This document shows, in pieces, positions 39,874 to 63,375 of a stretch of 64,000 nucleotides of DNA (positions within the stretch are counted from its first letter, which is position 1; each line of letters starts with the position of its first letter). Below the pieces are notes generated by a model. That model was not told where the DNA came from. It saw nothing but the letters and a program-made list of their open reading frames with translations, and did not search any database. Both the position numbers and the translations under genes were made by a program. The stretch is from Babesia bovis T2Bo (lineage: Eukaryota > Apicomplexa > Aconoidasida > Piroplasmida > Babesiidae). The stretch is from assembly GCF_000165395.2 (NCBI RefSeq), contig NC_010575.1, forward strand, positions 223,501 through 287,500. Direction: 5' to 3'.

Positions 39874-41816
39874 CTACCTCAATGCCACCCGCACCTTATG
39901 GATGAACTCACTGACCGTGTTCTTACCAGGATCTACCTGTAGAGATCCGTCGGAGACATTGATAAAATTCGATAGAGATTTTTGATCACCAACTAGTGCA
40001 TCCTACATATCCTTTAGTTTACCATTACCATCCTTTGACAGCGCCTCTAGTTTATCCTTAGCCTCCGTTAGCTCTTTCCCATTCAACCCATTCCTTAGAT
40101 TTTTCCTAGCCTCCTCTAGTCCTGTCTTAGCCTCCTTTAGTTTAACATCCAACCCCACCTCTATCTCTAGTCCATTATTAGCCTCCTCTAGTCCCGTCTT
40201 AGCCGTCCTTAGTTTCGCCTGTACCCCCTTGATCTCCTCCCCCTTCTTCCCTTCCAATGCCTCCTGGGCATTACCCAATTGTACCACTACTTCCCCAATA
40301 GCCTCTAGTACTTCCTTTACCTTCTCTGCTACATCCCCTTTCGTCATCCCCACTAACTCTTTCTTTACCTTCTCCACCCTATAATTCCTATCATGCTCCA
40401 TGGGGTCACACCCCAGGCACATCCAGCTGATTACCCCCTTAGAGACTACTCCATCCCCATATCTACATTCACGCCATTTCCCTCCACATGTAACCTTAAC
40501 TGCACATTGCTTCCTTAGGAAGTAGAGCTGGTAGAACAGAGCCCTAATGTAGTGGACCACCTGGTTGTATGCTTGGATGGGCACTGCTGGGTAGGTGAAG
40601 TTGCACTCTGTGTTGGCATAGAGGGAGTGTATGGCTGGAGTAGTGTTGTTGGTACTGTGTAATCCACCCTGGATACCTATGAGGACCAGTGGGCAGTACT
40701 GGGTCACTGCTTGGAAGTGGGCAAACAGGTTGAATTCATCAACTGTAATGGGAGCTGAACGGCCTTGTTGGAGAAAGGCAAGTGTTGGTGTCTCTTTGTC
40801 AGTGCCTTCGGGTTTCTTGAGTACTTCTTGTAGCCTTTCCTTGGCATGCTCCAGTAACTGCTTATATGCCTGACTATAGGGCAACGCACTTAGCCAGTAT
40901 AGGATCTCCCGAATGGTCTTAGGATTATTAGTGGTAGTACTGTGAGTAGTCTTCTTCTGCAATCCAGTAAAGTATGCACATGATAGAATATAGAGCTTGA
41001 AAATGGCACCGTTTTTGTGCTGGTTAGTATCACTGATTTGGCCAGTAGTACGAGAGGCATTGCCATTCGTAAAGACAGTAGCAGCATCGGTGTTGAATGA
41101 ATCCCTATGTGCAGTATGTACAAAACCGGCATAATTCATATCGTACGGTTGTTTTGCTGTAGTACCGTCACTGGAACCACTGCCGGGATGAGTAAACCCT
41201 AGAAACAGTTGTCCCATGAACCCATCCCATATAACCTGATCTAGTCTATTCTCTGGTCCACTATTATTAAGCATATCTCTAGGGAACCCTAAGGCCTGAA
41301 GCCATTGTGATAGTGTACCATCATCTAGACCGTTGCCATCCAAAATATGATTATTCCAATATGGTCTACTGTTGGTGTACTTCCCTGTCCAATGCATATA
41401 TGTCACTCCACTACAGATGAGACATATTGACCCTAGGAAAATCCGGGCCAGGAGGTGGTGGCGGTGAGTAACAGTGCTCTATAGACTAGTATTCCTAACT
41501 AATGCATTCCACGATGCCACATATCCATTTTCAAAAAAAGATCGTTAATATAAGTTGGATACGCTGATTGATACGTGTCCCTGTATATACGATGGCCACG
41601 GTTATTCGTGTTATTATCCTTCTCCTCTTTAACACAACTACACTTGGCATCCTCATTACACTTCCCACACTTTTTATTACAACAACACTTGCAGCATTTG
41701 CCAGCACCCTGACAGCCACTGCCACTACTACAGTGACACGCATCTCTACCACCACTATCCTTACACCCCTTGCCTGGGTGATTTGCTTCATCATACATCT
41801 GATGCGCCGCATCCAA
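39874..41816 (-). pseudogene. ves1alpha-like gene fragment, interrupted at several points
   Basis: The main frame (40003 to about 41480) is intronless VESA1 alpha type: MHWTGKYTNSRPYWNNHILD, SQWLQALGFPRDMLNNSG, PKTIREILYWLSALPYSQ and YNQVVHYIRALFYQLYFL, then a Lys/Glu coiled coil with repeated AKTGLEEA units. A TAG at 40003 is followed by 42 further codons in the same frame (to 39874), beginning DALVGDQKSLSNF. Upstream, two in-frame stops separate it from the Cys/Lys-rich part (41499-41792). The N-terminus is replaced by RPS17 sequence, and the C-terminal transmembrane region is absent. The breaks at both ends and the three stops make a functional product unlikely. Confidence 0.8.
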
Positions 41817-42129
41817 AAAGGTCCTGTGCGTGGCATTTCATTGAAGCTTCAGGAGGAAGAGCGTGAGCGCCGCATGGACTTTGTTCCCGAACGTTCCGAG
41901 GTTGATGTGCCTCTCATCCAGGTTGACCAGGACACCGCTGACATGTTGACGTTCCTCAAGTTGAACATACCTAACGTAAAGGTTATCACTGCCAACGTGC
42001 ATACTGAGGGCGTTCACCAGCGTTTCTGAAGGTCACGGTCGCCCGCCTCTAAAGCTGACATCGGACATTTAATGCTATAAAAATATACAGGTGTACATAT
42101 GGGTTGTTCTATGAGCTGTGATGGTGGTA
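41407..42129. repeat. 723-bp inverted repeat, right copy (A')
   Basis: Inverted partner of 35128-35850, with the same length and only scattered single-base differences (for example TCAGTATG versus TCAATATG in the ves1 part). Its RPS17 half also forms the outer end of the larger inverted repeat. Confidence 0.9.
41792..42029 (+). pseudogene. RPS17 3' fragment (copy 2)
   Basis: Plus-strand copy of the last ~79 codons of RPS17, fused at HLMRRI to ves1 sequence exactly as in copy 1. No start codon. It sits at the junction between the two nested inverted repeats. Confidence 0.9.
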
Positions 42130-42921
42130 AAGTAGTACTGCCCAATCGCTAAACGAAGTTAAGTTATCATTATCCAGACTCACAAAGCTATTGGTGTCCA
42201 TATAGTTGCTTATAGTCAAACGGTACATAGCAGTTTACATTAAGCAATAAAGGGTCCCAATATCAACGCTGTCTACTGCACTAGCAAGTTATGTAAGGAT
42301 AACGCTATTTTACAAGCGGTTCCACATGATGAGAGGTAGTGAACAGTATTGCTCATCATTCGATTATACTATGGTGTATCATACGTTTAAATCGTACTAG
42401 CCCGGTTATAATGCATACTAGTTAGTTAGATCAACGGAAATTATATGTTTAGTGAATTTGTCGCATGGAGATCCATGTCGCGCGTCATAATGGAAGGTAG
42501 TGTTCGCAAAGCCATACTCACATGTGTACTACATACTTTTGTAGTATCTTATACTTCATGTTCATACATTTAGTGCTATGGATAACTTCTATGAGGTTAT
42601 GTCGTGTTGAATGTAGATATACTTGCCGCACCAATCAATCCTTGATCACAGCATGGTAACCCAACCTGCTCTTGAATATAAGGTTGGATTTACATGATGT
42701 TAAAAACACCAACGCAAGGCGTGTATTGATAATTGCCCATTTGTTGCTTTGGTAAATGAAGATTCCACCGACATCGGTGAAGCCTTCTTAGTCTCAGACC
42801 ATCTGGGATTCCCCGTGTGTTCCTGTAAATGTAGTATTATATTGTAGATGTTATAATGCAGTTCGTGTAGCTCTTGGATTTCAACGTTAGCTAATCGTTG
42901 TATTCTCTGGAGGTTGCAAAT
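42030..42921. other. arm B flank between RPS17 fragment and repeat protein
   Basis: About 890 bp without a supported gene. It matches 61931-62822 inverted, with one diverged patch around 42320-42410. It includes the RPS17 3' flank and the presumed promoter of the repeat protein. Confidence 0.5.
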
Positions 42922-44043
42922 ATGGAGTTAAATCATAACTGCCGACGCGTTAACGGGTTCGGGAAGGTTACTAAATGGGTTGCCGGACTTGCTGTAGTAA
43001 CTTACTCAGCAGCTGGTAATGTCATATGCTGTACTTCACCTGGTACTGCTATACTCCAGGATACTGGTAATGGACCAACCACTGGATTGGAGCAGCACCA
43101 GCCTCTTGTCTTCCCAGTGAGACACGACGATGTGCAGTCTAGTGATTTCCAAAGCGACGATAATGCACCAATGCCCCTTAGGTCACCAAACCACCGCCGA
43201 CACAAGCCCAAACCCGTTACAGTTTATCGCAAAAAACTCGATACACTAAATGGTGAAACATATGAAAAGGATATTGCTGCTATTGATTTCACCACTATAA
43301 GTAAGGAGGATGGAAACCGAATGAAGATGCTCATAAGGCAGAAGCATATGGGATTGAGATTTGGTGATATACCCTACGATATCGCAAAAGAACTGGTTAA
43401 ATATGATGACATCGCGAAAGTGCCACAAAAAATGCGGAGCGAATTGATTAAATGTATGGTGAAGCACAGGACTGATGATCTTATATATAAATTCCCTGAG
43501 TCCATTGCATCCATGATTTTCCTATGCCGAAAATGTGGCGATCTACCGGGAAACATAGCATCCAGACTTAAGCAACCATTGACCAAACATGAATTTGGAA
43601 TGTTGCTTGATGAACTGCCTGAAAACCTTGCTTCAGAGGTTAGTAAGTTTGCGAAATATGAAGATATACCGCGTGATCTGGTTAACCGGTTACAAAGTCA
43701 CATGAGAAAGGAGCGTTTCTTGAATCAGCTATCATGTTTACCCAAAGTGCTTGCCAGAAGAATTTATTCATATGGGTCAATCGATGCCATTCCAACGAAG
43801 CTGCGTGAAGCAGTAAATAAGTATCTGGACATTCAACATTTTGACGACCTGGTGGCCAACCTCCCCAAGGAACTTTCTGACGAAGTTAAGCGGTGTGGAT
43901 CATTCGATAGAATTCATGACGAATTGAAGCATAAGATACGTGACCATTATAGTAAGCACTGTTTCGACGGTACCGAAGTGAAACATCATAAAAGGTTGTC
44001 TAAGAAGAGAACGTCAACTAGGCCACAAAGTGATCCGGAATGA
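42922..44043 (+). CDS. secreted protein with five 41-residue helical repeats (copy 1)
   Basis: I do not recognise this family. The frame is open from a TTG at 42898. The first ATG (42922) gives 373 residues. A hydrophobic core at about residues 18-37 (VTKWVAGLAVVTYSAAGNVI) after a polar N-terminus fits a signal sequence. A disordered Pro/His/Asp linker follows to about 125. Then five tandem repeats of 41 residues run to about 345. Typical units start LPENLASEVSKFAKYEDIP and LPKELSDEVKRCGSFDRI. The spacing suggests a two-helix solenoid unit. The C-terminus is basic. Its placement beside ves1 and mtm-like genes suggests an exported parasite protein. Confidence 0.75.
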   Translation: MELNHNCRRVNGFGKVTKWVAGLAVVTYSAAGNVICCTSPGTAILQDTGNGPTTGLEQHQPLVFPVRHDDVQSSDFQSDDNAPMPLRSPNHRRHKPKPVTVYRKKLDTLNGETYEKDIAAIDFTTISKEDGNRMKMLIRQKHMGLRFGDIPYDIAKELVKYDDIAKVPQKMRSELIKCMVKHRTDDLIYKFPESIASMIFLCRKCGDLPGNIASRLKQPLTKHEFGMLLDELPENLASEVSKFAKYEDIPRDLVNRLQSHMRKERFLNQLSCLPKVLARRIYSYGSIDAIPTKLREAVNKYLDIQHFDDLVANLPKELSDEVKRCGSFDRIHDELKHKIRDHYSKHCFDGTEVKHHKRLSKKRTSTRPQSDPE

Positions 44044-45209
44044 TATTGTAGCGCAATCGAGGTGACTAGGAAGGTTCAAATGAAGCCTATAAAGATCACA
44101 GACGCACTGGGAATCTGATTGTATTTCCGCATTGAATTGTTACGACACATTTGTAAAACAAATGTCGACTGCTTATAGTATCCGAACACAGGGCCATGAT
44201 TGTAGCAACTATCATAATGAAATAGTGTCGACCACGGTAATGCACAAATGCTATTGGATGCAATAGGACCACTGCGGTAAATCAGGAGTTATCATGCTAC
44301 AAATTAAGGTGAATGCGTATGGTTCTTCAATATCCTCGTGTTATACGAATGGAACAAATTTTGCAGCGGGGGACACGGATTGCATACCATGTAGCATCCT
44401 ATTTCATAACGTAGATTTGGTTTTGGCATACTTTGGTGTCTTTGAAGGTTTGGTCTATCAACTTAACATCTATGGTATAAGATATGTGTGTTCGCATTTT
44501 TTGTGGGCCACTTGACATCGATTGCTGCTTCACAACCGTTGACACCTCTTCCAGGTAAATCGCATATGTCCAAGAAACGTGAGTTTGTTGTGCTTACATA
44601 TGTCAGTAATGGCTAGAAGAGTCATGCAGAATGTGTTCTGTCATTTCAAAGTAATAATACAGGACGTCGGCGATTTATCAGGTCCAACCGTTTGGAGTAT
44701 TCCTTCGGGGATATAAAATTTTAATGTACATAGCTATGTTTGCGTATAAATCATGGAATCTACCGAATATATGAAGACACGGTGCCAATCTAGCGTTATT
44801 ATTCAGCCAGGAAATAATATGTTACAACACCATATACCAAGCTTCTAGGAAACATTCTACTGTATGGGTGATCATAGACAATCATTATTATATACCAACT
44901 AACGTGTATCTACGGCCAACAGCTTTGTTGGATTTCATTGACTGACTGATGAACGCTTCCATATAGTTGTACCTATGGTCGAAGAAAGAACATACCACTG
45001 GGAAATGGAACATTAAAGTGCAACTACACGGGATTATGTAAAACGTAAAATAGACCATTATGTCGCTGAGACGTTTTCTTTCCAACCATGGAATATTTAA
45101 CAAACACAGTTTGCATGAATCTGTCTCATTGGTTGGCTATTTACCGGGTTGTGCCATGAAGTTATGGTTTGGTAAAAGGCACTCTTCAAAAGGCATTAAT
45201 CAACCATGT
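44044..45209. other. interval between repeat protein and mtm-like gene, arm B
   Basis: About 1.17 kb. A plus-strand frame at 44294-44515 (73 codons) shares its first ~50 residues with a longer frame in the other arm and then diverges. A minus-strand frame at 44888-45103 (71 codons, starting MLNIPWLERKRLSDIMVYFT) is identical in both arms. Identity through recent duplication does not prove coding, so I leave both as possible small ORFs. Confidence 0.4.
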
Positions 45210-46724
45210 TCACGGCTTATCCGTGGTTCTCTTCAACTTAGGATTTTCCTTGTAGTACGTTCCAGCCTTGTCACTTATCCAATCGCCCCAAACTTCCAAA
45301 ATGTTGCATTTGTAGCCAAATGTTAGAAATGCTGCTATTACTACTAATAAGTATACAGCGAAAGGAACGTAATCTTTTACATCCGGAGGCTTATATGTTA
45401 GATATGATCCAGATGGACCCGAGTCTTTAATAATTGATCCTAGTTTGGCCCATCCACATCCCACAGCTGTTCCAACTAGTAGGATCACTAAGATCAATGC
45501 CAGTATTATAGCGGACAAGTAGTCGGCGGTGTAATATTTGTTGAAAGGCTTCTTTAGCTTTGTCAATACCAAAAGTTGAAAGGTTACATAAATATGGAGC
45601 CCGAGTAGTTGTTTTGAGGCTCCAACGCGTTCGATTTGTGGCTGTACTGGTGGTGTCGGCGGTTTGTTTTCATATTTCGCAAAAATGGTGGATACACTAC
45701 CTGCAATGCAGACAAGGGATTCCACTGTTATCACCACATATAGGACATCCCATGATGAGCCGCCTAGCAGCTCACCACCTTCGAATTGGGCAAGAGGCCT
45801 ATTTTGATGGGTAAGCATCAGCAAACCAACGGATATGATAACGTGGAGTGCCATCAGCGGGTAGACAACGTATTCGTGAACCTCTTTGCCATAAGCCGAA
45901 AAAGTGACTGCTACTAGCGTACCAACCATCAAACCACCTATACAGAGGAATGCAACGTCAACAGGAGTAAATCTTATGTGACAAATGGACACCTGGTAAG
46001 CACAGAGACAAAGTGCTACCTGCAATACGTAGGCAACTGGTGCAACGGTTTTATAATGGGTCCATCCTACAATTTTGTTGTCATGTAGGATTGACAGCAT
46101 TTTTTTATCATTATCATAGAATACCAAACATTCTAAGATGAACAGAGCACCGTAGAGTATGTTCAGAATTCCTACAATGTAAAATACTATTTTGCTCCTG
46201 GTGTAGCACCCTCCGAAGCAGTGAAGCTTGAAGCTTGCGATAATGAAACCAATCATGGCCAAGGCTTGTATTGACGTGAAGCAAAAGACAGCAGAACCTC
46301 TGAATTTGATATCAACACCCTCAGTCCATCCTACGACGAAAACGTTGAGGAAGCTGCAGAAAACTACAATCCCGGCACAAGCAATAAACCCTTTTTGGCA
46401 CTGACTCAAAGAGGCGCTAATCAATCCACATTTGTATCCAAAAACATGGATTAGTATATAACACAAAAGAATGCCAAGTGAGATCACGTTGAACGATGGG
46501 TCTAGGTCTCCATTTTGGAAACTACCATCAGGTTTATACTGTCTAGCTGTCCACGCGACACCATTTATTAACAAAGCTACACAACTACCAAGGCACAAGA
46601 TAATCAGACCGAAGAAGATAGCAGTGCTAGGACACAAATAGAATCCATCCTGTTCACAAGCTGACACGGTGGTTGCTTTGCCCAGAGTGCTCAACGGAAC
46701 CGGTGTTTCAGTCGTCATTTCCAT
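45210..46724 (-). CDS. multi-transmembrane (mtm-like) protein, copy 1
   Basis: A 504-residue single-exon frame with about 10-12 hydrophobic helices, for example STAIFFGLIILCLGSCVALL, VISLGILLCYILIHVFGYKC and YLSAIILALILVILLVGTAV. Cys-rich turns (KCGLISASLSQC) follow several helices. It resembles the B. bovis multi-transmembrane (mtm) family near ves1 loci, at least one member of which has been linked to altered infected-cell permeability or drug selection. I make that link by topology and neighbourhood, not by alignment. Its start overlaps a CCATGGAAATG context, the first ATG in the frame. The copy at 57971 differs mainly in loops. Confidence 0.75.
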   Translation of the reverse strand: MEMTTETPVPLSTLGKATTVSACEQDGFYLCPSTAIFFGLIILCLGSCVALLINGVAWTARQYKPDGSFQNGDLDPSFNVISLGILLCYILIHVFGYKCGLISASLSQCQKGFIACAGIVVFCSFLNVFVVGWTEGVDIKFRGSAVFCFTSIQALAMIGFIIASFKLHCFGGCYTRSKIVFYIVGILNILYGALFILECLVFYDNDKKMLSILHDNKIVGWTHYKTVAPVAYVLQVALCLCAYQVSICHIRFTPVDVAFLCIGGLMVGTLVAVTFSAYGKEVHEYVVYPLMALHVIISVGLLMLTHQNRPLAQFEGGELLGGSSWDVLYVVITVESLVCIAGSVSTIFAKYENKPPTPPVQPQIERVGASKQLLGLHIYVTFQLLVLTKLKKPFNKYYTADYLSAIILALILVILLVGTAVGCGWAKLGSIIKDSGPSGSYLTYKPPDVKDYVPFAVYLLVVIAAFLTFGYKCNILEVWGDWISDKAGTYYKENPKLKRTTDKP

Positions 46725-48514
46725 GGAATATTTTAACAGAAGGATTCCATGTGCATTGTGCCTTCTGACCTTTTTTCGCAGGTGTGTCTATCCCAAGACG
46801 TGCGGAAAATTGGGGCATGCGATTCCCATTTGGTGGTGAATATAGGTTCTCAGTTACCTGCCATAACACTCATTGCTGAACTCTGTAGTGTTTAATATTA
46901 GCGTCCTCATATATATTGCCTAATTCGAGAGGATTTACAACATATTAAGGTACACTGGCGGGTGACAATTGTTCGTAGCATTGGATTTCCATCTTGCAAC
47001 CGTTGTCACGCTACTTTTGGTTCTATGTTGATTGTTAGTAGCCAACTACATGGCCTTCAACTAGCTTCAGCCCTAGGTAATGAATTTTTTACTGAGTACC
47101 TTGAAGAAGGCAATTCACTGTTCGAAATGCTAGTTACACATATTCACTCGGATGATGTCTATAATTGTGTTTTGTTTTGATCATGTACATATTGTGGATG
47201 CTTTAAGAACTGTTTGACACTTCGTTACTGTCTCCGTTTATTTCTTACTTAATGGCATCGGTTGCATTTAAACTACGTCCGCTCTGTACATGTTGACAGT
47301 TATAATCTTTAATATGTCAACTCTGCCAGTATTGTTCATAATCCGTTATGTCTGGATCCTATTGTTCATTTGATGTCATATATTTCGGTTTTCTAGCCTG
47401 CCTTCTGATTGGCCACGTCTTGTCGTGAATCTCTAGGCTGGGCATTTTGCCAATGTTGTATTGTTAATCATTGTATAGCTATTATACCCGCGAATCGCTC
47501 GTGTGGATGTCTAACCTGTCAGAGGAAGCATTTAAAATACCAACGGGTGTGATTCACACTCTGATTAACCGCCGGTCCGTCTGGTATTAAATGGGCTATG
47601 AATGGTGAATAATCATTGTTCTAATATCTAATCGCCATGATACCCTTTGTTCTGCCTTATACGGATGAAACTACTAGAACATATTGTTATGTGCTGTCTG
47701 TAGTATGTACACTTGTAATTTTAACGCCAATTTAAAGGAACTCAATTTGGCGATATAAACTTATTGGATTTACATACTGCTCATATGTCAGTTGTGGTAC
47801 TCCAATTGGCATACCCGCTTTTTACACGTCTGTAACAACGAGAGGATCTCCATCAGCAGCCTGGTTTGTGGCTCCATTAAGCCAACATTCCATGAGTATA
47901 TGTACGTATAATGCATCGGATTATTAAGAGCAAGACCATTTGTTCTTTTACACGGCATGAACCCTTTTTATACAATATCCATATAAACACCATCACCAGA
48001 CGTTGTCTGTAGCTAGTAAAATCACTCAACAAAACAGCTCTGTAGGCCACAAGATAAGATTCAGTTTGTTACATATCATAGATACGCCATAATATAATAT
48101 GTTACATATGTTGTCACTGCTGTAGCAGCTGTAATTAGCACTTCACATAACAGGTGCTCTATAGAATACCACTGGACAGTGGCTTTTCCGGTAATCATAA
48201 CCACCAGGAACGTAGCATTCATGATAGATAGCACTATCTATGGTATGATAGACAAAAGGTTACTTCACCATGCGCTATACTATCCTGTTAACCATGACAT
48301 ACTGTTACTACATATACCAGTACAGCATCATAGGCACTTACGATATATTACTGTCCATTATGGACACATTGCAAGCTACATTCACAACGGAATATATATA
48401 TATATATCTAAGTTGTATCACACCATAAATAACGGTACAATGACATGTTAACCTATGAGCAATGTTGCCACGGAGTTACATTGTGCAGTCATTATGATTC
48501 ATTTATAGAGATGC
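46725..48514. other. upstream flank of mtm-like gene, arm B
   Basis: About 1.8 kb, nearly identical (inverted) to 56184-57970. Short frames at 46962-47180 and 48179-48451 begin with GTG and have no family features. An AT dinucleotide run near 48391-48407 is longer here than in the other arm. It holds the presumed mtm promoter. Confidence 0.45.
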
Positions 48515-48842
48515 CATGATGCATGTTGTGGTAGCGCTGCTTCACTGAGAATACATATATATATCTAGCTAACTTTGATATTAACGAATTAACGTGATGT
48601 ATCACATTAAAGTGTAGGTTATCATATCACTGTTAAAAGGTATATATCTAATAAATTTTATAGGTAATAATTACGCCTATTTACTGTATAGAAACGATGT
48701 CATTAGTGCTACGGATAGCTACACAAAGCTGTAGACCACGATACACTGACCAACATGTATCACTGTATTCTATTACACATGTCTATGTACTATGACATTA
48801 TGATAACTTTTCTCATCAATATACTATAAGGTTGTTGATTTA
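48515..48842. other. start of the spacer between arms
   Basis: About 330 bp of unique AT-rich DNA, with no gene seen. Two ATATATATCTA words (48555 and 48641 areas) echo the AT run inside the arms. Confidence 0.35.
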
Positions 48843-49268
48843 TTATTGGAAACCATGAGAAGATAGACGCTTTTCCAGTTGCTCTTTCGCACTCAATGAG
48901 AAAAAATTCCTAATTTCTTCTTCCAGTGCGGGGTCTAGCGGCTTGAGAGAGCGCACTGGGACTTTTGAGGCCAAATCATCTGGTAACAAATAAGTTAGAG
49001 CCATTCTGTTTTTGCGCCTGGGCAAGAGAAGCCATTCAAGAGAAAGGGCGGATGGTTTTGTTGTCTCTGTGCGTTCTTGAGACTCTCTATTATCTGCTTC
49101 CGTTACTTCAACAGTTTCAGTGTCAACTCCGTCCTTCTCAGAGAAGAATCCATTCTCCGATCCTTCCTGCGTGGGTTGGTCCTGGGCTACCTCAGTAGAC
49201 GAGGCAGTGGCAGACAGCCCGAATGCGACAACTACACAGAGCTTGGAGAAAGTGTTAAAGGCTACCAT
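48843..49268 (-). CDS. SmORF-like small secreted protein
   Basis: A 141-residue frame with a clear signal peptide (MVAFNTFSKLCVVVAFGLSA, cleavage likely after ATAS). An acidic Thr/Glu-rich segment (residues ~25-70) follows, then a more ordered tail that includes WLLLPRRKNRM and ends LEKRLSSHGFQ. Size, leader and a place beside ves1 genes match the B. bovis SmORF family, whose function is unknown. I assign it by these traits only. It lies in the unique spacer and has no copy in the arms. Confidence 0.65.
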   Translation of the reverse strand: MVAFNTFSKLCVVVAFGLSATASSTEVAQDQPTQEGSENGFFSEKDGVDTETVEVTEADNRESQERTETTKPSALSLEWLLLPRRKNRMALTYLLPDDLASKVPVRSLKPLDPALEEEIRNFFSLSAKEQLEKRLSSHGFQ

Positions 49269-50522
49269 CTTGGTTAAGTCAGTATAGAGTGAGATTCCTA
49301 ACTGTTGTACTCACAGCTGTTGTTATGCCCCAGGTATGGTACTAGTACCATGCAAGATACATGCGTTACTCCGGGATATACCACTTTACAATAATTGTCT
49401 TTCTATAATTACTGTTATCTAAGGTGATGTAGTCCACACGTCGATACTACAATAGACTCTGTTGCATTATACACTAGACACTACGCAAACATTACAATAG
49501 TCTCCATATAGTGATATGCTACTTTGCTATTGTATGATACCTATGGTTGTATTGACCACATTCGTTTCATTGATCATAGAAAACTACAGCAATCCAGCTG
49601 GTGTCGCATTATATACACAGCCAGCAGTAGTATACAAGTGGTTCCCCGTAGAGTACTCTGTACTACAATTAGTGTCCATTGCTGTATAGTAATACAAACA
49701 AATCATGATGTGCTAGTGGTGCTAATTCCTTAAGCATTGATGAATAACTAGTTACCATGTTACTAAACTACCCATGTCCACTGCAGTTACATGGCCATGG
49801 CATCTTGCGGTTATCCCCAAAGTCTTCAATTTATTCCAACATAACGTTATAGAGTGTCAATTCACAATCTACATAGCACCACGTGGCACTGTGGAGTACC
49901 TAACGTATTAACGGTATAGATTTACCCGCTATACTACCCCGAGCATCTAATACATTGTCACACTCTCACTAAAAATACACTAAACACTTGGCTAGTGTCC
50001 TGTCAAAAATTGTGTAGCTATGTATATCGATACCTGTCTACTGCTGTTGTCAATCTACAGTGCATCACTCTATTGCTACTGCAACACCATATATTCTATT
50101 ACACTATAATCCCCAGAAACACCACATTCCCTAAACCACTATTTACCCTACAACAGTACTCACCCCCGGAGACACCATAAACACCACATAACATAAACCC
50201 CAGATTTAATATACCCTACAACACTACATCCCCTCCAACACCACACTCATAAATTCCCTTCTATCAACCCATATATATACTATACCATGATCACTATATA
50301 TGCTCCATAGTACTATACAATCTACCGTCTCTCTAGAAGTACAGCAGTTGTACCCATAACAATAGATGTACTCCCTAGAGTATTCAATTACTAATGCTAG
50401 CATTGTACATATCCAGTACACTATATACCCAATGATTCTAGGAAGTACTGTCTCTATAATACACGGTAACTACAACATATTCAATTTACGTTGTTTGTAG
50501 GGTACATCATAGATGATGTACA
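49269..50522. other. gene-free part of the spacer
   Basis: About 1.25 kb. No supported gene on either strand. The 50.0-50.3 kb part is CA/AC-rich on the plus strand, with repeated CACCACA, CACTATA and ACACCA words, a low-complexity tract. It would include the SmORF upstream region. Confidence 0.4.
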
Positions 50523-50963: not shown

Positions 50964-51232
50964 GGTTACGATGGTAGTGATGCAGTGGTAGGGAGTGGTG
51001 GTATAGTAATGTAGTGGTACTAGGTAATATTCACTATTACAACTATATATAGGCTACTGCTTTATTGCTATTGAATGTCTATTATTGCATAGGGTCAGCT
51101 AATTCAAAATACTACACTCTACGATATACATGTTAATAATTACGCTTTCACAGTAAGCATACCAGTTCATATTGGGCTATCCAAGGTTGGGCCATAAAGT
51201 CTAGCAGGTGGTAATGCTAGTACTCACTAGAA

Positions 51233-52537: not shown

Positions 52538-52780
52538 CCATTGGCATAAAGGCACTACAAAGTGTGGGGGTGGGAATCTTGAAGGGGAATGTAGTGTGGA
52601 AGGGAGGTGATGTGGAGAAGGTAGATTATAGGGTTGTGATCTGGACTAGTGGTGTATACGGTAGCAATGTAATAGTATTCAATAATACCACATAATTACC
52701 ATTATTAGCATCACTTCACTTATCTCCTGAAACATACTGTTTCTCATGTTGTCCATATGACTACCCTAGGCAGTACTCAC

Positions 52781-53387
52781 CTCCTGGAACACCTCCCTGA
52801 TTCAACCTATCCAGGTCATAGCCCATGGCCGCCATGAATGAGCCGAGACCGGCATCGGTACCATCTATCTTGTGCAAACTACTATTCTTCCACCTATTGT
52901 CCTTGCCACCACTCCCCTTTCCTGTTAGGAATCCCAACTGACTGAGTCCACTCCAGATGAGACATACTGATCCTAGGAAAATCCGGGCCAGGAGGTGGAC
53001 CTTAGTGCATTCACTGGATATGGAGGTCCAAAGGAAGAGATTTGTAGTGGAACTGCCACTATAAGAAGTATTCTTTTTGCAATAGGCCGAGAGGTAGCAT
53101 TTTCCGGCACCATTGATACCATTTTTACTCTCACCTTTACCACACGTTTCACACTCATGAGTAGCGCAATCAGTACCGCTTTTATTACAACATTGAGTAG
53201 CAGTACCACCTCGCTCACATCCTTTACCAATTCCTTTACTATCACCTATTTTCTTCTCCCCCTTAAGACAACAGGTATCCCCTTCTTGCCACCCAACCCA
53301 CTTCTGCAGTCCCAGTGCCAAGTGGTATATCAGTGTCCCTATGACCTCGGTACTGCCGGGGACAGTAGTGTTAGCATTGTCCGACAT
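52781..53387 (-). pseudogene. ves1beta-like 5' exon fragment
   Basis: A VESA1 beta-type exon: LIYHLALGLQKWVGWQEGDT, a Cys/Lys-rich segment, then HLLARIFLGSVCLIWSGLSQ and SFMAAMGYDLDRL, ending at a phase-1 donor (GTGAGT at 52780). It matches the second exon of the plus-strand ves1beta fragment closely. The next beta exon is absent. The mtm-like gene follows instead. The frame continues directly from the ves1alpha-like frame upstream, separated by one TGA and two codons. Confidence 0.75.
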
Positions 53388-53393
53388 AGGGTC

Positions 53394-55913
53394 TCAGTCA
53401 CACTCCATGCAACTAAACCCTGGCAGCCTATCCTCGAGGAATGCCTGGAGGGGGGAGGGGAAGCCGTCCATGTACTGTTGGTGGCATTTTTCACAGGTCC
53501 TCTGTTCTCCCCGTCGGCCGCACTTGGTGGCGTGATCTTTACATGTAGGGCACTTGGGAGAGCTGCAAAGGGAGAGGAGCTGGTTAATGGCTTTGAGGAA
53601 TGCCGAGTAATGTGCTTCCAGTTTAACATTACGCAAATTTACTTCATTTCCAACGCCTGTTATTTTCCCTAGATGTTCCAGTGCGCTTTTAGCTTGCTTT
53701 ATAATATCTTCTCCATCTTGCTCTGCCCACTGTTTAAATGCCTCCAATACCTTATGTAACCCATCGATACCAGCACTCACTGCATTCTTATCCTGATCAA
53801 TATCAGTACCACTACCACTCCCAGACTTCGTAGCAGCCGCCGTTAGTGCCGTCGTAGCCTTCGTAGCAGCATCCTTTAGTCCATTAACCGAATCTGACTC
53901 CTTCTCTAGTTTCTCCACCTTCTCCGTCTCCAATTTCCCTAGTACATCCTTTAGTACCTTGTTGAAATTATTCCCACTTGTCCCATTCTCATACACCCCT
54001 GAAAATACTCCATTTAGTGCCGTCTTCACTCCTGTTAGATCCTCCTTTCCCCTATCCAATACCTCCTGGGCATTACCCAATTGTACAACTAATTCACCTA
54101 TATCCTTCAATACGCTCACTAGAGACTTCATTAGTGTATCATTCTTCCCTGTTCCATTCGTTATCCCCACCAACTCTTTCTTTACCTTCCCCACCCTCCA
54201 TTTCCTATCATGTTCCATGGGGTTACACCCCAGGCACATCCAGCTAACCACACCTTTACCAAGCACTCCACTACCATACCTACATTCACGCCATTTGCCT
54301 CCACAAGTGACCTTCACTGCACACTGCTTCCTAAGGAAATAGAGTTGGTAGAACAGAGCCCTGATGTAGTGTACCACCTGGTTGTAAGCTTGAATATCAA
54401 CTGCTGGGTAGGTGAATCCACACTCCGTGTTGGCGTATAAGACGTGAATGGCAGGAGTAGTACTGTTAGTACTGTGTAATCCACCCTGGATACTTATGAG
54501 GACCAGTGGGCAGTACTGAGTCACTGCTTGGAAGTGAGCAAACAGGTTGAATTCATCAACTGTAATGGGAGCTGAACGGCCTTGTTGGAGAAAGGCAAGT
54601 GTTGGTGTCTCTTTGTCAGTGCCTTCGGGTTTCTTGAGTACTTCTTGTAGCCTTTCCTTGGCATGCTCCAGTAACTGCTTATATGCCTGACTATAGGGCA
54701 ACGCACTTAGCCAGTATAGGATCTCCCGAATGGTCTTAGGATTATTAGTGGTAGTACTGTGAGTAGTCTTCTTCTGCAATCCAGTAAAGTATGCACATGA
54801 TAGAATATAGAGCTTGAAAATGGCACCGTTTTTGTGCTGGTTAGTATCACTGATTTGGCCAGTAGTACGAGAGGCATTGCCATTCGTAAAGACAGTAGCA
54901 GCATCGGTGTTGAATGAATCCCTATGTGCAGTATGTACAAAACCGGCGTAATTCATAAGGTACGGTTGTTTTGCTGTAGTACCGTCACTCTGGCCGGGAT
55001 TAACACCCGTAGGGTGGGTAAACCCTAGAAACAGTTGTCCCATAAATCCATCCCATATAACCTGATCTAGTCTATTCTGTGGTCCACTATTATTAAGCAT
55101 ATCTCTAGGGAACCCTAAGGCCTGTAGCCATTGGGATAGGGTACCGTCATCTAGACTACTGCCGTCCAGGATGTGATTGTTCCAGTATGGGCTACCCTTG
55201 GCGTACTTTCCTGTCCAATGCATAGAGGTAACTTCACTCCAAATGAGACATACTGACCCTAGAAGAATTTGGTCACATTGGTGTCGACGTTGGGAAGAGG
55301 TCAATCCGTCCCCAATCTTAGTGGCACCAATTTCATCGCTATCAGTCAGATGTTTCCATGTAGGTGGCTCCTTCAATGCTTCAATCTCAGTCCAGAGGTA
55401 TGCATGAGTCAGTTTCATTGTGTACGTCGATCCATATCGCATAATGTAGTTACCATTATCACATCTACACTCATTCTTACACCCACTACAACTTGTACAA
55501 CAACACTTGCAGCATTTGCCCGCTAAAGCGCATTTACACTCCTCAGCAGGACCACTACTACAGTCACTAGCACAGCTACACCTATGCGTATTACCAGTAG
55601 TATCCATACACTTAGTACACCCCCTGCCCAGTTGTGCCCAATCTGTACCCGGGATCACTACATATTTCATACAGCCACAGTCCTGACACTTGTTGTCCGG
55701 CTGTACTTCCTCTAGATACTTGCACTCATTGCCACCGTGTGGACCGGAATTGACATCACTACCCTTATTGCCATTGCACTTGCCACCATTAGTACACTGC
55801 TCTATCTTACTCCACCCAACTAGTGCACTGAGTACCTGTGCCAGCTGGTCTATGTAGGTCCGTACTACAGGGGTACCACTATGGCAGTACCCCGAATATC
55901 CACCACTTCTTGA
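53394..55913 (-). pseudogene. ves1alpha-like frame, 5' and 3' truncated
   Basis: A VESA1 alpha-type frame of about 839 codons, open from 55913 (after a CACTTAG that could be a 3' splice site) to a TGA at 53394. The order is: the end of the N-terminal helical part (YIDQLAQVLSALVGWSK), a Cys/Lys-rich domain with CCKCCCTSCSGC, the central core (SQWLQALGFPRDMLNNSG, PKTIREILYWLSALPYSQ), a coiled coil of about 200 residues and a Cys cluster (CPTCKDHATKCG...CEKCH) ending PGFSCMECD. The usual N-terminal ~100 residues and the C-terminal transmembrane end are missing. It might be expressed if an unseen first exon exists, but more likely it is a donor copy. Confidence 0.75.
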
Positions 55914-56183
55914 CTAAGTGAGTTTCTAAACATCAATGAAACTTTTATTAACAATGCTACTATACTTTTATGGAACATTTGGTAATCATCTACTAAAAGT
56001 ATTGCTATACTCTCATCTACAGTGACACTACATGCATTATTACTACCAGACCCATTAGTGTATATGTTAGACTGTATTCAATTATTTAGTCATGTATAGT
56101 GCAAACGGTACTACCATCACTATCAATGACACAGCTACAAATGGTGCCATCGAGTAACCAACGTGACAATATCGTACATTATC
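55914..56183. other. junction between ves1alpha frame and arm B'
   Basis: About 270 bp of AT-rich unique DNA. The expected ves1alpha first exon is not found, so the gene's 5' end was probably lost at this breakpoint. Confidence 0.4.
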
Positions 56184-57970
56184 GCATCTCTATAAATGAA
56201 TCATAATGACTGCACAATGTAACTCCGTGGCAACATTGCTCATAGGTTAACATGTCATTGTACCGTTATTTATGGTGTGATACAACTTAGATATATATAT
56301 ATTCCGTTGTGAATGTAGCTTGCAATGTGTCCATAATGGACAGTAATATATCGTAAGTGCCTATGATGCTGTACTGGTATATGTAGTAACAGTATGTCAT
56401 GGTTAACAGGATAGTATAGCGCATGGTGAAGTAACCTTTTGTCTATCATACCATAGATAGTGCTATCTATCATGAATGCTACGTTCCTGGTGGTTATGAT
56501 TACCGGAAAAGCCACTGTCCAGTGGTATTCTATAGAGCACCTGTTATGTGAAGTGCTAATTACAGCTGCTACAGCAGTGACAACATATGTAACATATTAT
56601 ATTATGGGCGTATCTATGATATGTAACAAACTGAATCTTATCTTGTGGCCTACAGAGCTGTTTTGTTGAGTGATTTTACTAGCTACAGACAACGTCTGGT
56701 GATGGTGTTTATATGGATATTGTATAAAAAGGGTTCATGCCGTGTAAAAGAACAAATGGTCTTGCTCTTAATAATCCGATGCATTATACGTACATATACT
56801 CATGGAATGTTGGCTTAATGGAGCCACAAACCAGGCTGCTGATGGAGATCCTCTCGTTGTTACAGACGTGTAAAAAGCGGGTATGCCAATTGGAGTACCA
56901 CAACTGACATATGAGCAGTATGTAAATCCAATAAGTTTATATCGCCAAATTGAGTTCCTTTAAATTGGCGTTAAAATTACAAGTGTACATACTACAGACA
57001 GCACATAACAATATGTTCTAGTAGTTTCATCCGTATAAGGCAGAACAAAGGGTATCATGGCGATTAGATATTAGAACAATGATTATTCACCATTCATAGC
57101 CCATTTAATACCAGACGGACCGGCGGTTAATCAGAGTGTGAATCACACCCGTTGGTATTTTAAATGCTTCCTCTGACAGGTTAGACATCCACACGAGCGA
57201 TTCGCGGGTATAATAGCTATACAATGATTAACAATACAACATTGGCAAAATGCCCAGCCTAGAGATTCACGACAAGACGTGGCCAATCAGAAGGCAGGCT
57301 AGAAAACCGAAATATATGACATCAAATGAACAATAGGATCCAGACATAAAGGATTATGAACAATACTGGCAGAGTTGACATATTAAAGATTATAACTGTC
57401 AACATGTACAGAGCGGACGTAGTTTAAATGCAACCGATGCCATTAAGTAAGAAATAAACGGAGACAGTAACGAAGTGTCAAACAGTTCTTAAAGCATCCA
57501 CAATATGTACATGATCAAAACAAAACACAATTATAGACATCATCCGAGTGAATATGTGTAACTAGCATTTCGAACAGTGAATTGCCTTCTTCAAGGTACT
57601 CAGTAAAAAATTCATTACCTAGGGCTGAAGCTAGTTGAAGGCCATGTAGTTGGCTACTAACAATCAACATAGAACCAAAAGTAGCGTGACAACGGTTGCA
57701 AGATGGAAATCCAATGCTACGAACAATTGTCACCCGCCAGTGTACCTTAATATGTTGTAAATCCTCTCGAATTAGGCAATATATATGAGGACGCTAATAA
57801 TAAACACTACAGAGTTCAGCAATGAGTGTTATGGCAGGTAACTGAGAACCTATATTCACCACCAAATGGGAATCGCATGCCCCAATTTTCCGCACGTCTT
57901 GGGATAGACACACCTGCGAAAAAAGGTCAGAAGGCACAATGCACATGGAATCCTTCTGTTAAAATATTCC
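56184..57970. other. upstream flank of mtm-like gene, arm B'
   Basis: Inverted counterpart of 46725-48514 with few differences, including a shorter AT run near 56291-56303. No supported gene. Promoter of the mtm-like gene expected here. Confidence 0.45.
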
Positions 57971-59497
57971 ATGGAAATGACGACTGAAACACCGGTTCCG
58001 TTGAGCACTCTGGGCAAAGCAACCACCGTGTCAGCTTGTGAACAGGATGGATTCTATTTGTGTCCTAGCACTGCTATCTTCTTCGGTCTGATTATCTTGT
58101 GCCTTGGTAGTTGTGCAGCTTTGTTAATAAATGATGTAGTATGGACATCTACACAAGTTAAATATAAAAGTTATTTCCAAAATGGAGACCTAGACCCATC
58201 GTTCAACGTGATCTCACTTGGCATTCTTTTGTGTTATATACTAATCCATGTTTTTGGATACAAATGTGGATTGATTAGCGCCTCTTTGAGTCAGTGCCAA
58301 AAAGGGTTTATTGCTTGTGCCGGGATTGTAGTTTTCTGCAGCTTCCTCAACGTTTTCGTCGTAGGCTGGACTGAAGGTGTTGACATCCCATTCAGAGGTT
58401 TTACCGTCTTTTGCTTCACATCAATACAAGCCTTGGCTATGATTGGTTTCATTATCGCAAGCTTCAAGCTCCACTGCTTCGGAGGGTGCTACACCAGGAG
58501 CAAAGTAGTGTTTTACATTGTAGGAATTCTCAACATACTATACGGTGCCCTATATATCCTCGAATGCCTGGTATTTTATGATAGTAAGAAAAATTTCATA
58601 TTCCCAAATAAAAATAACATTTTAAGATGGACCCATTATAAAAACGTCGCACCAGTTGCCTACGTATTGCAGGTAGCACTTTGTCTCTGTGCTTACCAGG
58701 TGTCCATTTGTCACATAAGATTTACTCCTGTTGACGTTGCATTCCTCTGTATAGGTGGTTTGATGGTTGGTACGCTAGTAGCAGTCACTTTTTCGGCTTA
58801 TGGCAAAGAGGTTCACGAATACGTTGTCTACCCGCTGATGGCACTCCACGTTATCATATCCGTTGGTTTGCTGATTCTTACGCATCAAAATAGGCCCCTT
58901 GTCCAATTCGAAGGTGGTGAGCTGCTAGGCGGCTCATCATGGGATGTCCTATATGTGGTGATAACAGTGGAATCCCTTGTCTGCATTGCAGGTAGTGTAT
59001 CCACCATTTTTGCGAAATATGAAAACAAACCGCCGACACCACCACCATCACCACCTTCATCATCAATCGAACGCGTTGGAGCCTCAAAACAACTACTCGG
59101 GCTCCATATTTATGTAACCTTTCAACTTTTGGTATTGACAAAGCTAAAGAAGCCTTTCAACAAATATTACACCGCCGACTACTTGTCCGCTATAATACTG
59201 GCATTGATCTTAGTGATCCTACTAGTTGGAACAGCTGTGGGATGTGGCTGGGCCAAACTAGGATCACTTGTACTTAAAAACCCGGGTTCACCTGAGGTAC
59301 CGTACCTAACATATAAGGATCCGAACCTAGAAGATTACGTTCCTTTAGCTGTATACTTATTAGTAGTAATAGCAGCATTTCTAACATTTGGCTACAAATG
59401 CAACATTTTAGAAGTTTGGGGCGATTGGATAAGTGACAAGGCTGGAACGTACTACAAGGAAAATCCTAAGTTGAAGAGAACCACGGATAAGCCGTGA
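57971..59497 (+). CDS. multi-transmembrane (mtm-like) protein, copy 2
   Basis: A 508-residue frame, the partner of the gene at 45210. Helices are identical or nearly so. Differences sit in short patches: after helix 1 (NDVVWTSTQVKYKSYFQNG), after helix 5 (YDSKKNFIFPNKNNILRW), in a proline-rich loop (PPTPPPSPPSSSIERV) and before the last helix (KNPGSPEVPYLTYKDPNLED). The frame stays intact despite insertions and deletions, all multiples of three, which suggests the product matters. Start ATG at 57971. Confidence 0.75.
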   Translation: MEMTTETPVPLSTLGKATTVSACEQDGFYLCPSTAIFFGLIILCLGSCAALLINDVVWTSTQVKYKSYFQNGDLDPSFNVISLGILLCYILIHVFGYKCGLISASLSQCQKGFIACAGIVVFCSFLNVFVVGWTEGVDIPFRGFTVFCFTSIQALAMIGFIIASFKLHCFGGCYTRSKVVFYIVGILNILYGALYILECLVFYDSKKNFIFPNKNNILRWTHYKNVAPVAYVLQVALCLCAYQVSICHIRFTPVDVAFLCIGGLMVGTLVAVTFSAYGKEVHEYVVYPLMALHVIISVGLLILTHQNRPLVQFEGGELLGGSSWDVLYVVITVESLVCIAGSVSTIFAKYENKPPTPPPSPPSSSIERVGASKQLLGLHIYVTFQLLVLTKLKKPFNKYYTADYLSAIILALILVILLVGTAVGCGWAKLGSLVLKNPGSPEVPYLTYKDPNLEDYVPLAVYLLVVIAAFLTFGYKCNILEVWGDWISDKAGTYYKENPKLKRTTDKP

Positions 59498-60808
59498 ACA
59501 TGGTTGATTAATGCCTTTTGAAGAGTGCCTTTTACCAAACCATAACTTCATGGCACAACCCGGTAAATAGCCAACCAATGAGACAGATTCATGCAAACTG
59601 TGTTTGTTAAATATTCCATGGTTGGAAAGAAAACGTCTCAGCGACATAATGGTCTATTTTACGTTTTACATAATCCCGTGTAGTTGCACTTTAATGTTCC
59701 ATTTCCCAGTGGTATGTTCTTTCTTCGACCATAGGTACAACTATATGGAAGCGTTCATCAGTCAGTCAATGAAATCCAACAAAGCTGTTGGCCGTAGATA
59801 CACGTTAGTTGGTATATAATAATGATTGTCTATGATCACCCATACAGTAGAATGTTTCCTAGAAGCTTGGTATATGGTGTTGTAACATATTATTTCCTGG
59901 CTGAATAATAACGCTAGATTGGCACCGTGTCTTCATATATTCGGTAGATTCCATGATTTATACGCAAACATAGGTATGCAATTTATAGAAGGACCGTTAG
60001 TCACGATCCCTTGTTGATTGCACTGCGAGTGGGTTATGAACAGTGTTGAATGGCCAGTGAAATCGGATGGGTTTAGAGGCTGAATGCAGATCCTCTGGAT
60101 ATCATGTTAGGCGTTTTTCCATCGCTGGTAATGTACAATATGATCTATGCACGTTAACATCGTATCTCCCCGAAGGTATATTCCAAAGGGTTAGACATGG
60201 TGAATCGCCGACGTTGTGTCGTTCCACTTTGGACCGACAGAACACATGCTGCACCACTACTTTATATATTACCGTTACATACGAGCACAGCAAACTTACG
60301 ATTACTGGAAGAGGTGTCAACGGTTGTGAATCAGTAATGCATGTCACTTGTACGGAAAATGTGAACAGATATTTTATACAATCCATATTAGGTTGATGGT
60401 CCAAACCTTCAAAGACACCAAAGTATGCCAAAACCAAATCTACGTTATGAAATAGGATGCTACATGGTATGCAATCCGTGTCCCCCGCTGCAAAATTTGT
60501 TCCATTCGTATAACACGAGGATATTGAAGAACCATACGCATTCACCTTAATTTGTAGCATGATAACTCCTGATTTACCGCAGTGGTCCTATTGCATCCAA
60601 TAGCATTTGTGCATTACCGTGGTCGACACTATTTCATTATGATAGTTGCTACAATCATGGCCCTGCGCTCGGATACAATATGCAGTGGATACTAAAATTA
60701 CACGTGCCCTAACAATTCCATATGGAAATACAATCAGATTCCCAGTGCGTCTGTGATCTTTATAGGCTTCATTTGAACCTTCCTAGTCACCTCGATTGCG
60801 CTACAATA
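59498..60808. other. interval between mtm-like gene and repeat protein, arm B'
   Basis: About 1.3 kb. A minus-strand frame at 60102-60560 (152 codons, starting MLQIKVNAYGSSISSCYTNG) is twice as long as its counterpart at 44294. The plus-strand frame at 59604-59819 is identical to 44888-45103. The 59970-60400 part is clearly diverged from arm B. None of these small ORFs has a recognised family. Confidence 0.4.
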
Positions 60809-61930
60809 TCATTCCGGATCACTTTGTGGCCTAGTTGACGTTCTCTTCTTAGACAACCTTTTATGATGTTTCACTTCGGTACCGTCGAAACAGTGCTTAC
60901 TATAATGGTCACGTATCTTATGCTTCAATTCGTCATGAATTCTATCGAATGATCCACACCGCTTAACTTCGTCAGAAAGTTCCTTGGGGAGGTTGGCCAC
61001 CAGGTCGTCAAAATGTTGAATGTCCAGATACTTATTTACTTCCTTACGAAGCTTTGTTGGAATGGCATCGATTGACCCATATGAATAGATTTTTCTAGCA
61101 AGCACTTTGGGCAAACATGATAGCTGATTCAAGAAACGCTCCTTTCTCATATAATTTTGTAATCGGTTAACCAAATCACGTGGTATATCTTCATATTTCG
61201 CAAAATTACTAGCCTCTGAGGCAAGGTTTTCAGGTAGTTCATCAAGCAACATTCCAAATTCATGTTTGGTCAACGGTTGCTTAAGTCTGGATACCACGTT
61301 TCCCGGTAGATCTCCACATTTACGGCATAGGAAAACCATGGATGCAATAGACTCAGGGAATTTATATATAAGGTCATCATTCCTGTGCTTCACCATACAT
61401 TTAATCAATTCGCTCCGCATTTTTTGTGGCACTTTCGCGATGTCATCATATTTAACCAGTTCTTTTGCGATATCGTAGGGTATATCACCAAATCTCAATC
61501 CCATATGCTTCTGCCTTATGAGCATCTTCATTCGGTTTCCATCCTCCTTACTTATAGTGGTGAAATCAATAGCAGCAATATCCTTTTCATATGTTTCACC
61601 ATTTAGTGTATCGAGTTTTTTGCGATAAACTGTAACGGGTTTGGGCTTGTGTCGGCGGTGGTTTGGTGACCTAAGGGGCATTGGTGCATTATCGTCGCTT
61701 TGGAAATCACTAGACTGCACATCGTCGTGTCTCACTGGGAAGACAAGAGGCTGGTGCTGCTCCAATCCAGTGGTTGGTCCATTACCAGTATCCTGGAGTA
61801 TAGCAGTACCAGGTGAAGTACAGCATATGACATTACCAGCTGCTGAGTAAGTTACTACAGCAAGTCCGGCAACCCATTTAGTAACCTTCCTGAACCCGTT
61901 AACGCGTCGGCAGTTATGATTTAACTCCAT
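60809..61930 (-). CDS. secreted protein with five 41-residue helical repeats (copy 2)
   Basis: 373 residues from the ATG at 61930, the inverted duplicate of 42922-44043. About a dozen amino-acid differences lie mostly in repeats 2 to 4 (for example GNVVSRLKQ for GNIASRLKQ, SEASNFAKY for SEVSKFAKY, LQNYMRKER for LQSHMRKER, LRKEVNKYL for LREAVNKYL). The frame is intact and the leader differs at one position (GFRKV for GFGKV). The bias of changes to the repeats, with the Pro-rich linker unchanged, may be selection or a converted tract. Confidence 0.75.
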   Translation of the reverse strand: MELNHNCRRVNGFRKVTKWVAGLAVVTYSAAGNVICCTSPGTAILQDTGNGPTTGLEQHQPLVFPVRHDDVQSSDFQSDDNAPMPLRSPNHRRHKPKPVTVYRKKLDTLNGETYEKDIAAIDFTTISKEDGNRMKMLIRQKHMGLRFGDIPYDIAKELVKYDDIAKVPQKMRSELIKCMVKHRNDDLIYKFPESIASMVFLCRKCGDLPGNVVSRLKQPLTKHEFGMLLDELPENLASEASNFAKYEDIPRDLVNRLQNYMRKERFLNQLSCLPKVLARKIYSYGSIDAIPTKLRKEVNKYLDIQHFDDLVANLPKELSDEVKRCGSFDRIHDELKHKIRDHYSKHCFDGTEVKHHKRLSKKRTSTRPQSDPE

Positions 61931-62822
61931 ATTTGCAACCTCCAGAAAATACAACGATTAGCTAACGTTGAAATCCAAGAGCTACACGAACTGCATTATA
62001 ACATCTACAATATAATACTACATTTACAGGAACACACGGGGAATCCCAGATGGTCTGAGACTAAGAAGGCTTCACCGATGTCGGTGGAATCTTCATTTAC
62101 CAAAGCAACAAATGGGCAATTATCAATACACGCCTTGCGTTGGTGTTTTTAACATCATGTAAATCCAACCTTATATTCAAGAGCAGGTTGGGTTACCATG
62201 CTGTGATCAAGGATTGATTGGTGCGGCAAGTATATCTACATTCAACACGACATAACCTCATAGAAGTTATCCATAGCACTAAATGTATGAACATGAAGTA
62301 TAAGATACTACAAAAGTATGTAGTACACATGTGAGTATGGCTTTGCGAACACTACCTTCCATTATGACGCGCGACATGGATCTCCATGCGACAAATTCAC
62401 TAAACATATAATTTCCGTTGATCTAACTAACTAGTATGCATTATAACTAGACTAGGGCGACTTAAACGTATGATACAGCACAGTATAATCGAATTATAAG
62501 CAACACAGTTCATTACCTCTGATCATGTGGAACCGCTTGTAAAATAGCGTTATCCTTACATAACTTGCTAGTGCAGTAGACAACGTTGATATTGGGACCC
62601 TTTATTGCTTAATGTAAACTGCTATGTACCGTTTGACTATAAGCAACTATATGGACACCAATAGCTTTGTGAGTCTGGATAATGATAACTTAACTTCGTT
62701 TAGCGATTGGGCAGTACTACTTTACCACCATCACAGCTCATAGAACAACCCATATGTACACCTGTATATTTTTATAGCATTAAATGTCCGATGTCAGCTT
62801 TAGAGGCGGGCGACCGTGACCT
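61931..62822. other. arm B' flank between repeat protein and RPS17
   Basis: Inverted counterpart of 42030-42921. No supported gene. A diverged patch near 62445-62530 matches the patch at 42320-42410. Confidence 0.45.
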
Positions 62823-63375
62823 TCAGAAACGCTGGTGAACGCCCTCAGTATGCACGTTGGCAGTGATAACCTTTACGTTAGGTATGTTCAACTTGAGGAA
62901 CGTCAACATGTCAGCGGTGTCCTGGTCAACCTGGATGAGAGGCACATCAACCTCGGAACGTTCGGGAACAAAGTCCATGCGGCGCTCACGCTCTTCCTCC
63001 TGAAGCTTCAATGAAATGCCACGCACAGGACCTTTTTGGATGCGGCGCATCAGATGTGTGATGAAGCCAGCAACCTTATTGCGCATACGCTTTGATGGGA
63101 TTTGTGCTACCTCTTCAGCAACCTTCTTGTTGAAGTGGAAGTCCAAACTCAGCTTGGCATAATACTTCTCTACGATCTGGCGCGCAGCACGCTTGACGGT
63201 CTTAGTACGAACGCGACCCTGCGATATGATATAGTGATCAACACAAAGGGCAAAAGATACAAACGACACATTTCCCATGAACCAGAAGCGGGTTGCTCTA
63301 TATATTTACGCTCATCAACACATAAATTATACACAAAACCGGTAATAGCTATAAATAGAATCCAAAACATACCAT
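62823..63375 (-). CDS. RPS17: 40S ribosomal protein S17 (eS17), two exons, the intact copy
   Basis: Exon 1 is only the ATG codon (63375-63373). A 154-nt intron (63219-63372, GTATGT...CGCAG) leads to exon 2 (63218-62823), giving 132 residues, the usual length: [20 protein letters not shown], then [20 protein letters not shown] and [16 protein letters not shown]. The alternative in-frame start at 63278 lies within the intron and would add unrelated residues. The last ~79 codons are part of the inverted repeats and also occur at 35228 and 41792. The gene marks the right border of the accessory block. Confidence 0.93.

Follow-up and report, generated by a model that had tools for sequence, protein, structure and literature searches.

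Babesia bovis varies its surface through segmental gene conversion (SGC) of the ves1 genes, a process for which Rad51 is not essential and whose tracts average 109 bp in the wild type (PMC7485966). The mtm genes of this parasite have been reported to adjoin ves1 and smorf genes (PMC7561165), and ves loci are sites where the chromosomes of different species are broken and rearranged relative to one another (PMC4066756). Mammalian sex-chromosome palindromes, which consist of large inverted arms around a spacer, are kept alike by conversion, with arm identities above 99% (PMC8981503). Here we describe a 64,000-bp stretch of the B. bovis T2Bo genome (C3:223501-287500, referred to as the window), in which two long inverted arms, A and B, carry RPS17 sequence, a repeat-protein gene of 373 amino acids (aa) and an mtm-like gene in a ves1 cluster. 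The arms are an inverted segmental duplication and form one pair of a set of three copies, the third of which (copy C) lies past the end of the window.

As in ves1 SGC, the locus has short tracts shared between dispersed copies, and the patches in which A and B differ (9-340 bp) overlap the reported tract sizes. However, it is the mtm-like gene, the 373-aa gene and intergenic DNA that contain these tracts, and not a transcribed ves1alpha gene, and the tracts are known from the sequence of one genome, not from conversion watched over time. The mammalian palindromes share the large inverted arms around a spacer, but the arms described here are only 95-97% identical overall, contain unconverted or imported patches, and are accompanied by a third, direct copy that takes part. 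The locus also resembles the ves/smorf/mtm neighbourhoods and ves breakpoint loci of B. bovis in placing an mtm-like gene beside ves1 and SmORF-like genes in a type of locus that coincides with breakpoints. No description of the palindrome, of the RPS17 duplication or of mtm conversion was found in Babesia titles, the starts of abstracts and open passages, taken in part from the best 10-20 hits of longer lists, subscription papers and supplements being outside this scope; the copy-to-copy conversion considered below thus concerns genes for which we found no earlier report of it.

Three copies of one segment

Self-BLAST of the window yielded two inverted blocks, 41785-44733 against 63067-60145 (94.9% identity) and 44729-48521 against 59978-56177 (97.0%), with ≈165 extra bp in arm B between them. 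This confirmed the long, two-armed inverted duplication described in an earlier note on this DNA, the outer coordinates of which agreed with ours to within 7 bp. The palindrome is made up of:

41785..48521, plus strand: arm A, 6,737 bp, with an RPS17 3' fragment, the 373-aa gene and the mtm-like gene; inverted match to 56177-63067
48522..56176, no strand assigned: spacer, 7,655 bp, with a SmORF-like gene, a multi-membrane gene and ves1 genes
56177..63067, minus strand: arm B, 6,891 bp, with the mtm-like gene, the 373-aa gene and the 3' part of a complete RPS17

The genes of the two arms lie in mirror order, as had also been stated:

41785..42129, plus strand: RPS17 3' fragment of arm A, fused to ves1 5' sequence at 41785
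42922..44043, plus strand: 373-aa gene, copy A, Microp_apicomplexa_15 (Pfam E 3.2e-11), 97% to copy B
45210..46724, minus strand: mtm-like gene, copy A, 504 aa, 12 hydrophobic segments
57971..59497, plus strand: mtm-like gene, copy B, 508 aa, 12 hydrophobic segments
60809..61930, minus strand: 373-aa gene, copy B, Microp_apicomplexa_15 (Pfam E 7.4e-12)
62823..63375, minus strand: complete RPS17 (copy B), Ribosomal_S17e (E 2.2e-56)

The arms do exist as a pair, but they do not stand alone. Comparison within the window and with the genome (8,234,832 bp in 8 contigs) revealed two further relatives, given here in window coordinates that are extended past 64000 where needed:

90528..97743 (C3:314028-321243), same direction as B: copy C
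35128..35850, minus strand: 35-kb piece, an inverted 723-bp copy of the outer end of arm A, with the RPS17 3' fragment and ves1 5' sequence

Copy C begins 27.5 kb past the end of B, at an offset of ≈34.5 kb, and is 82-90% identical to B and 81-90% identical to A. The homology between B and C runs past the palindrome, to 63614 in B and 97743 in C, and the larger units at 51.0-63.6 and 82.4-97.7 kb share a matching order. The 35-kb piece differs from 41407-42129 at only 2 of 723 bp (99.7% identity), and its RPS17 part differs from B at 1 of 345 positions. The RPS17/ves1 junction recurs there in inverted form, and a 723-bp inverted repeat thus encloses the ves1 sequences that lie from 35.8 to 41.4 kb. 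At both junctions, 35228-35665 (minus strand) and 41592-42029 (plus strand), ves1 read on its reverse strand forms the same open frame of 145 codons together with the RPS17 3' part, which is probably due to chance.

These comparisons modified the earlier interpretation, which had not included the third copy, the 35-kb piece or the concentration of arm divergence in ten short patches. It had described the arms as containing RPS17 3' DNA, which is correct for arm A and the 35-kb piece, where only the 3' part is present, but the gene is complete in B and C. The spacer, which had been called unique, is so relative to the arms, but not elsewhere: its ves1 gene at 54040-55268 shares 88% identity with 40238-41442, immediately beyond arm A, and other stretches match 77-90 kb at 65-74%.

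The mosaic of copies A, B and C

The three copies were aligned over 7,002 columns, in which A and B are separated by 221 substitutions and 11 gap openings (232 events). A patch was defined as four or more such events, grouped when no more than 60 columns apart. By this definition, 221 of the 232 events fall within ten patches of 9-340 bp that cover 1,246 columns. Five patches are in the mtm-like gene, one is in the 373-aa gene and four are non-coding, including the join of the two BLAST blocks. Among them are the following, none with a strand:

42331..42404: non-coding, 60/74 identical to B
43472..43811: A=C patch in the 373-aa gene, where C matches A and not B at 29/29 differing sites
44129..44188: non-coding, 41/58 identical to B
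44454..44725: non-coding, 187/248 identical to B, with no counterpart in the aligned copy C
45360..45453: mtm-like gene, 75/94 identical
46044..46329: largest patch in the mtm-like gene, 241/283 identical to B 58366-58648
46522..46579: mtm-like gene, 41/58 identical

Outside the patches, A and B differ at only 9 of 5,503 bp (0.16%), and each differs from C by ≈7.6% in coding and 17.5% in non-coding sequence. Inside them, A and B differ at 212 of 1,201 bp (18%), which is about the same distance as either has to C. Without the A=C patch, these differences amount to 88 of 473 coding (18.6%) and 95 of 388 non-coding positions (24.5%). In the non-coding patches where all three copies are present, the divergence is 24% for A-B, 20% for A-C and 18% for B-C; in the coding patches, again leaving out the A=C patch, B and C differ by 13% and A differs from either by 19%.

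The 923 variable sites comprise 770 at which A and B share a state, 66 shared by A and C, 72 shared by B and C, and 15 with three states. The longest runs of sites shared by one pair are 263 (AB), 29 (AC) and 8 (BC), compared to maxima of 75, 6 and 6 in 10,000 shuffles. Runs of at least 150 bp without an A-B difference total 5,160 bp, while 2,000 shuffles matched to the local divergence from C averaged 1,045 bp and never exceeded 2,206 bp, and plain shuffles averaged 249 bp with a maximum of 1,080 bp. No shuffle reproduced the mosaic, which supports the earlier suggestion that the arms feed gene conversion. With respect to exchange specifically from arm to arm, the mosaic is strongly non-random, yet it fits both the overwriting of one arm by the other and a duplication followed by imports.

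The firmest case of exchange is that between A and C. The A=C patch is enclosed by the longest stretch of identity between these two copies (455 bp, 43455-43909), and this tract shows exchange between copies irrespective of whether the other patches are relics or imports. We are highly confident that copy-to-copy conversion took place in some form.

In the mtm-like protein of copy B, the patches correspond to residues 49-68, 132-226, 302-311, 359-365 and 426-459. By a simple hydropathy scan they lie mostly between hydrophobic segments, although residues 132-226 cover two of these. The 158 codons that touch patches contain 23 silent and 43 amino-acid differences between A and B; the other 342 compared codons contain one silent difference and none in amino acids. 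In the 373-aa gene, silent changes between A and B predominate when counted per site (pS 0.073, pN 0.014).

Relics or imports

The reading that we prefer, with about an even chance of being right, starts from an old segment in three copies; non-allelic gene conversion would recently have made its inverted arms alike, in a patchy fashion. The segment, with the mtm-like gene, the 373-aa gene and RPS17, would have been triplicated long ago, A in inverted and B and C in direct orientation, and the copies would have diverged by ≈8% in coding and ≈17% in non-coding sequence before the recent conversion. The inverted pair would then have been overwritten in many tracts, A from B or B from A, whichever direction each conversion may have taken, and most patches would be unconverted relics rather than imports. 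A and C would have exchanged a tract within the 373-aa gene, and the RPS17/ves1 junction would have been copied between arm A and the 35-kb locus, presumably all by the machinery that makes segmental conversions in ves1. The closer similarity of B and C to each other than to A in the coding patches looks as if A represents the older split and B and C arose by direct duplication, and the matching order of the units at 51.0-63.6 and 82.4-97.7 kb points the same way.

Several considerations weigh against patchy homogenisation. The patches were picked on A-B differences, which inflates the divergence within them, leaving the low divergence outside as the firmer half of the evidence, and the shuffles treat sites as exchangeable. 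Outside the patches the divergence is uniformly low, and a single recent event would explain this as well as many conversions do. The search for donors covered two of the ten patches in one genome, with a 7.5-kb stretch of N (64001-71500) adjoining the window. Furthermore, a 30-kb ves cluster used as the one control (C2:540001-570000) holds a 3.6-kb direct repeat, C2:544896-548507 / 558405-562014, at 99.2% identity, so that near-identity alone is not special here.

The main rival, and a serious one, is that a recent inverted duplication made A and B identical and that patches were later imported into one arm or the other from C and from donors outside this genome, such as alleles encountered in the tick from other parasite lineages. 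This could well be what happened, although we lean away from it. It would account for the even and very low divergence outside the patches (9/5,503 bp) and for the patch to which copy C is the exact partner (29/29 sites), and patch sizes of 9-340 bp are within the range of the ves1 tracts reported in PMC7485966 (mean 109 bp). However, no donor was present in this genome for the two patches searched: A 46030-46345 found only A, B and C, and A 44440-44740 found only A and B. One of the ten patches thus has an exact partner (A=C), and the two others searched had no donor outside A, B and C. In addition, the divergence of the non-coding patches (24%, 20% and 18%) resembles old divergence among three copies.

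An assembly artefact, in which one arm was filled by reads from the other or two haplotypes were laid out as arms, is improbable. The assembly was presumably built from short Sanger reads, and the stretch at 46580-48514, with only four A-B differences, could hide a collapse. T2Bo has also been described as non-clonal (PMC6630957). However, a third, clearly distinct copy is present, and the identical tracts in the mtm-like gene, 142-227 bp long, are interrupted by patches specific to one arm, so that a read a few hundred bases long would be tied to a single arm. An assembly error is thus unlikely to be the source of the mosaic in the mtm-like gene. Finally, selection without conversion, driving fast change in the mtm loops and at a few other places after a recent duplication, can be set aside as very improbable, even though the mtm-like patches fall mostly between hydrophobic segments and include 43 codons with amino-acid changes, because silent changes also cluster in these patches (23 compared to 1 outside) and amino-acid selection alone is therefore insufficient, while four of the ten patches are non-coding and the 373-aa patch, in a gene whose changes are mostly silent, has C as the exact partner of A.

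Genes, setting and implications

The genome contains at least four matches to RPS17, two full and two 3' fragments; besides the gene in the window, a second complete one is located at C3:320457-320885. By our own reading of the splice sites, copies B and C both have a first exon of a single codon, followed by a GT..AG intron and the remainder of the gene, which in B corresponds to a predicted exon at 63375-63373, the intron, and an exon at 63218-62823. The 373-aa gene has at least 19 matches, consisting of the three close copies and 16 weak ones, 13 of which are at C3:1.2-1.41 Mb. Copy C of this gene (C3:318446-319168) is open over residues 15-371, although its longest listed ATG-started open reading frame (ORF) has 240 aa, and it may lack the usual start.

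The mtm-like proteins of A, B and C each have 12 hydrophobic segments in the hydropathy scan, two of them overlapping, in keeping with the approximately ten expected of mtm proteins; PMC7561165 gives ten membrane segments by TMHMM for two mtm members. An RxL motif has been reported at residues 24-27 of Bb60-mtm and Bb11920-mtm, but A and B read EQDG there and C reads EQNG, and we therefore call the gene mtm-like. At least 24 matches to it exist: besides the three close copies, 21 have identities of 22-33%, and none of these 21 was linked to a named mtm gene. The multi-membrane gene in the spacer (51233-52537) had been taken for an mtm gene. It encodes 8 hydrophobic segments, but two pairwise comparisons gave no significant similarity (26% over 125 aa to the arm mtm-like protein, E 0.018, and E 0.017) and do not support membership. 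The statement that the palindrome is not made of a transposon holds as far as scanned: the arm ORFs match Ribosomal_S17e, Microp_apicomplexa_15 or no Pfam family above the cut-off, and no transposase or mobility family was found in them or in the two large spacer ORFs, the scan of the arms covering ORFs from 150 aa upwards. Another spacer gene, which we take to be SmORF-like, matches Pfam Microp_apicomplexa_5, a family that does not carry that label.

The ves1 cluster, in which VESA1_N was matched with E 2.3e-140, spans ≈35.1-97.7 kb (≈62.6 kb), and arms A and B, copy C and the 35-kb piece all lie within it or at its edges. It is flanked by housekeeping genes: on the left, those for an RNA polymerase second subunit (5.9 kb), an eIF5-type protein (27.5 kb), an L7Ae-type protein (29.3 kb) and GDI (32.0 kb), and on the right, RPS17 of copy C and an AAA ATPase (105.2 kb). 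A 52-bp ves1 stretch (41407-41458) recurs at 94-96% identity in at least 27 further places in the genome and is thus conserved within the otherwise variable ves1. The only tandem repeat in 40000-64000 is a 49-bp array inside ves1, and no RNA genes were found by an Rfam scan of 34000-64000 and no tRNA genes by a scan of the window. The direct repeat in the control cluster is another recently copied or converted segment; inverted matches above 500 bp there are 72.6-78.0% identical, and this single cluster contains no comparable inverted pair. The analysis covered the assembly of one genome, and protein searches for other strains or species returned 2 + 1 proteins that apparently belong to this same genome (one of these searches scored only the 7,998 candidates sharing most words).

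Crossing over between the arms could in principle invert the spacer; such arms can flip the genes between them, which is relevant to any assembly. More tentatively, the short-tract machinery of ves1 may also act outside ves1. Inverted and direct copies in ves clusters might then serve one another as private exchange partners, through which most of an mtm-like gene is kept alike and its loops are reshuffled. The homology used to build both the palindrome and the ves1 pair at 35 kb might have come from RPS17, at the edge of the cluster. If tracts of this size are indeed present in adjacent mtm-like genes and intergenic sequence, the process would be regional and not specific to ves1.

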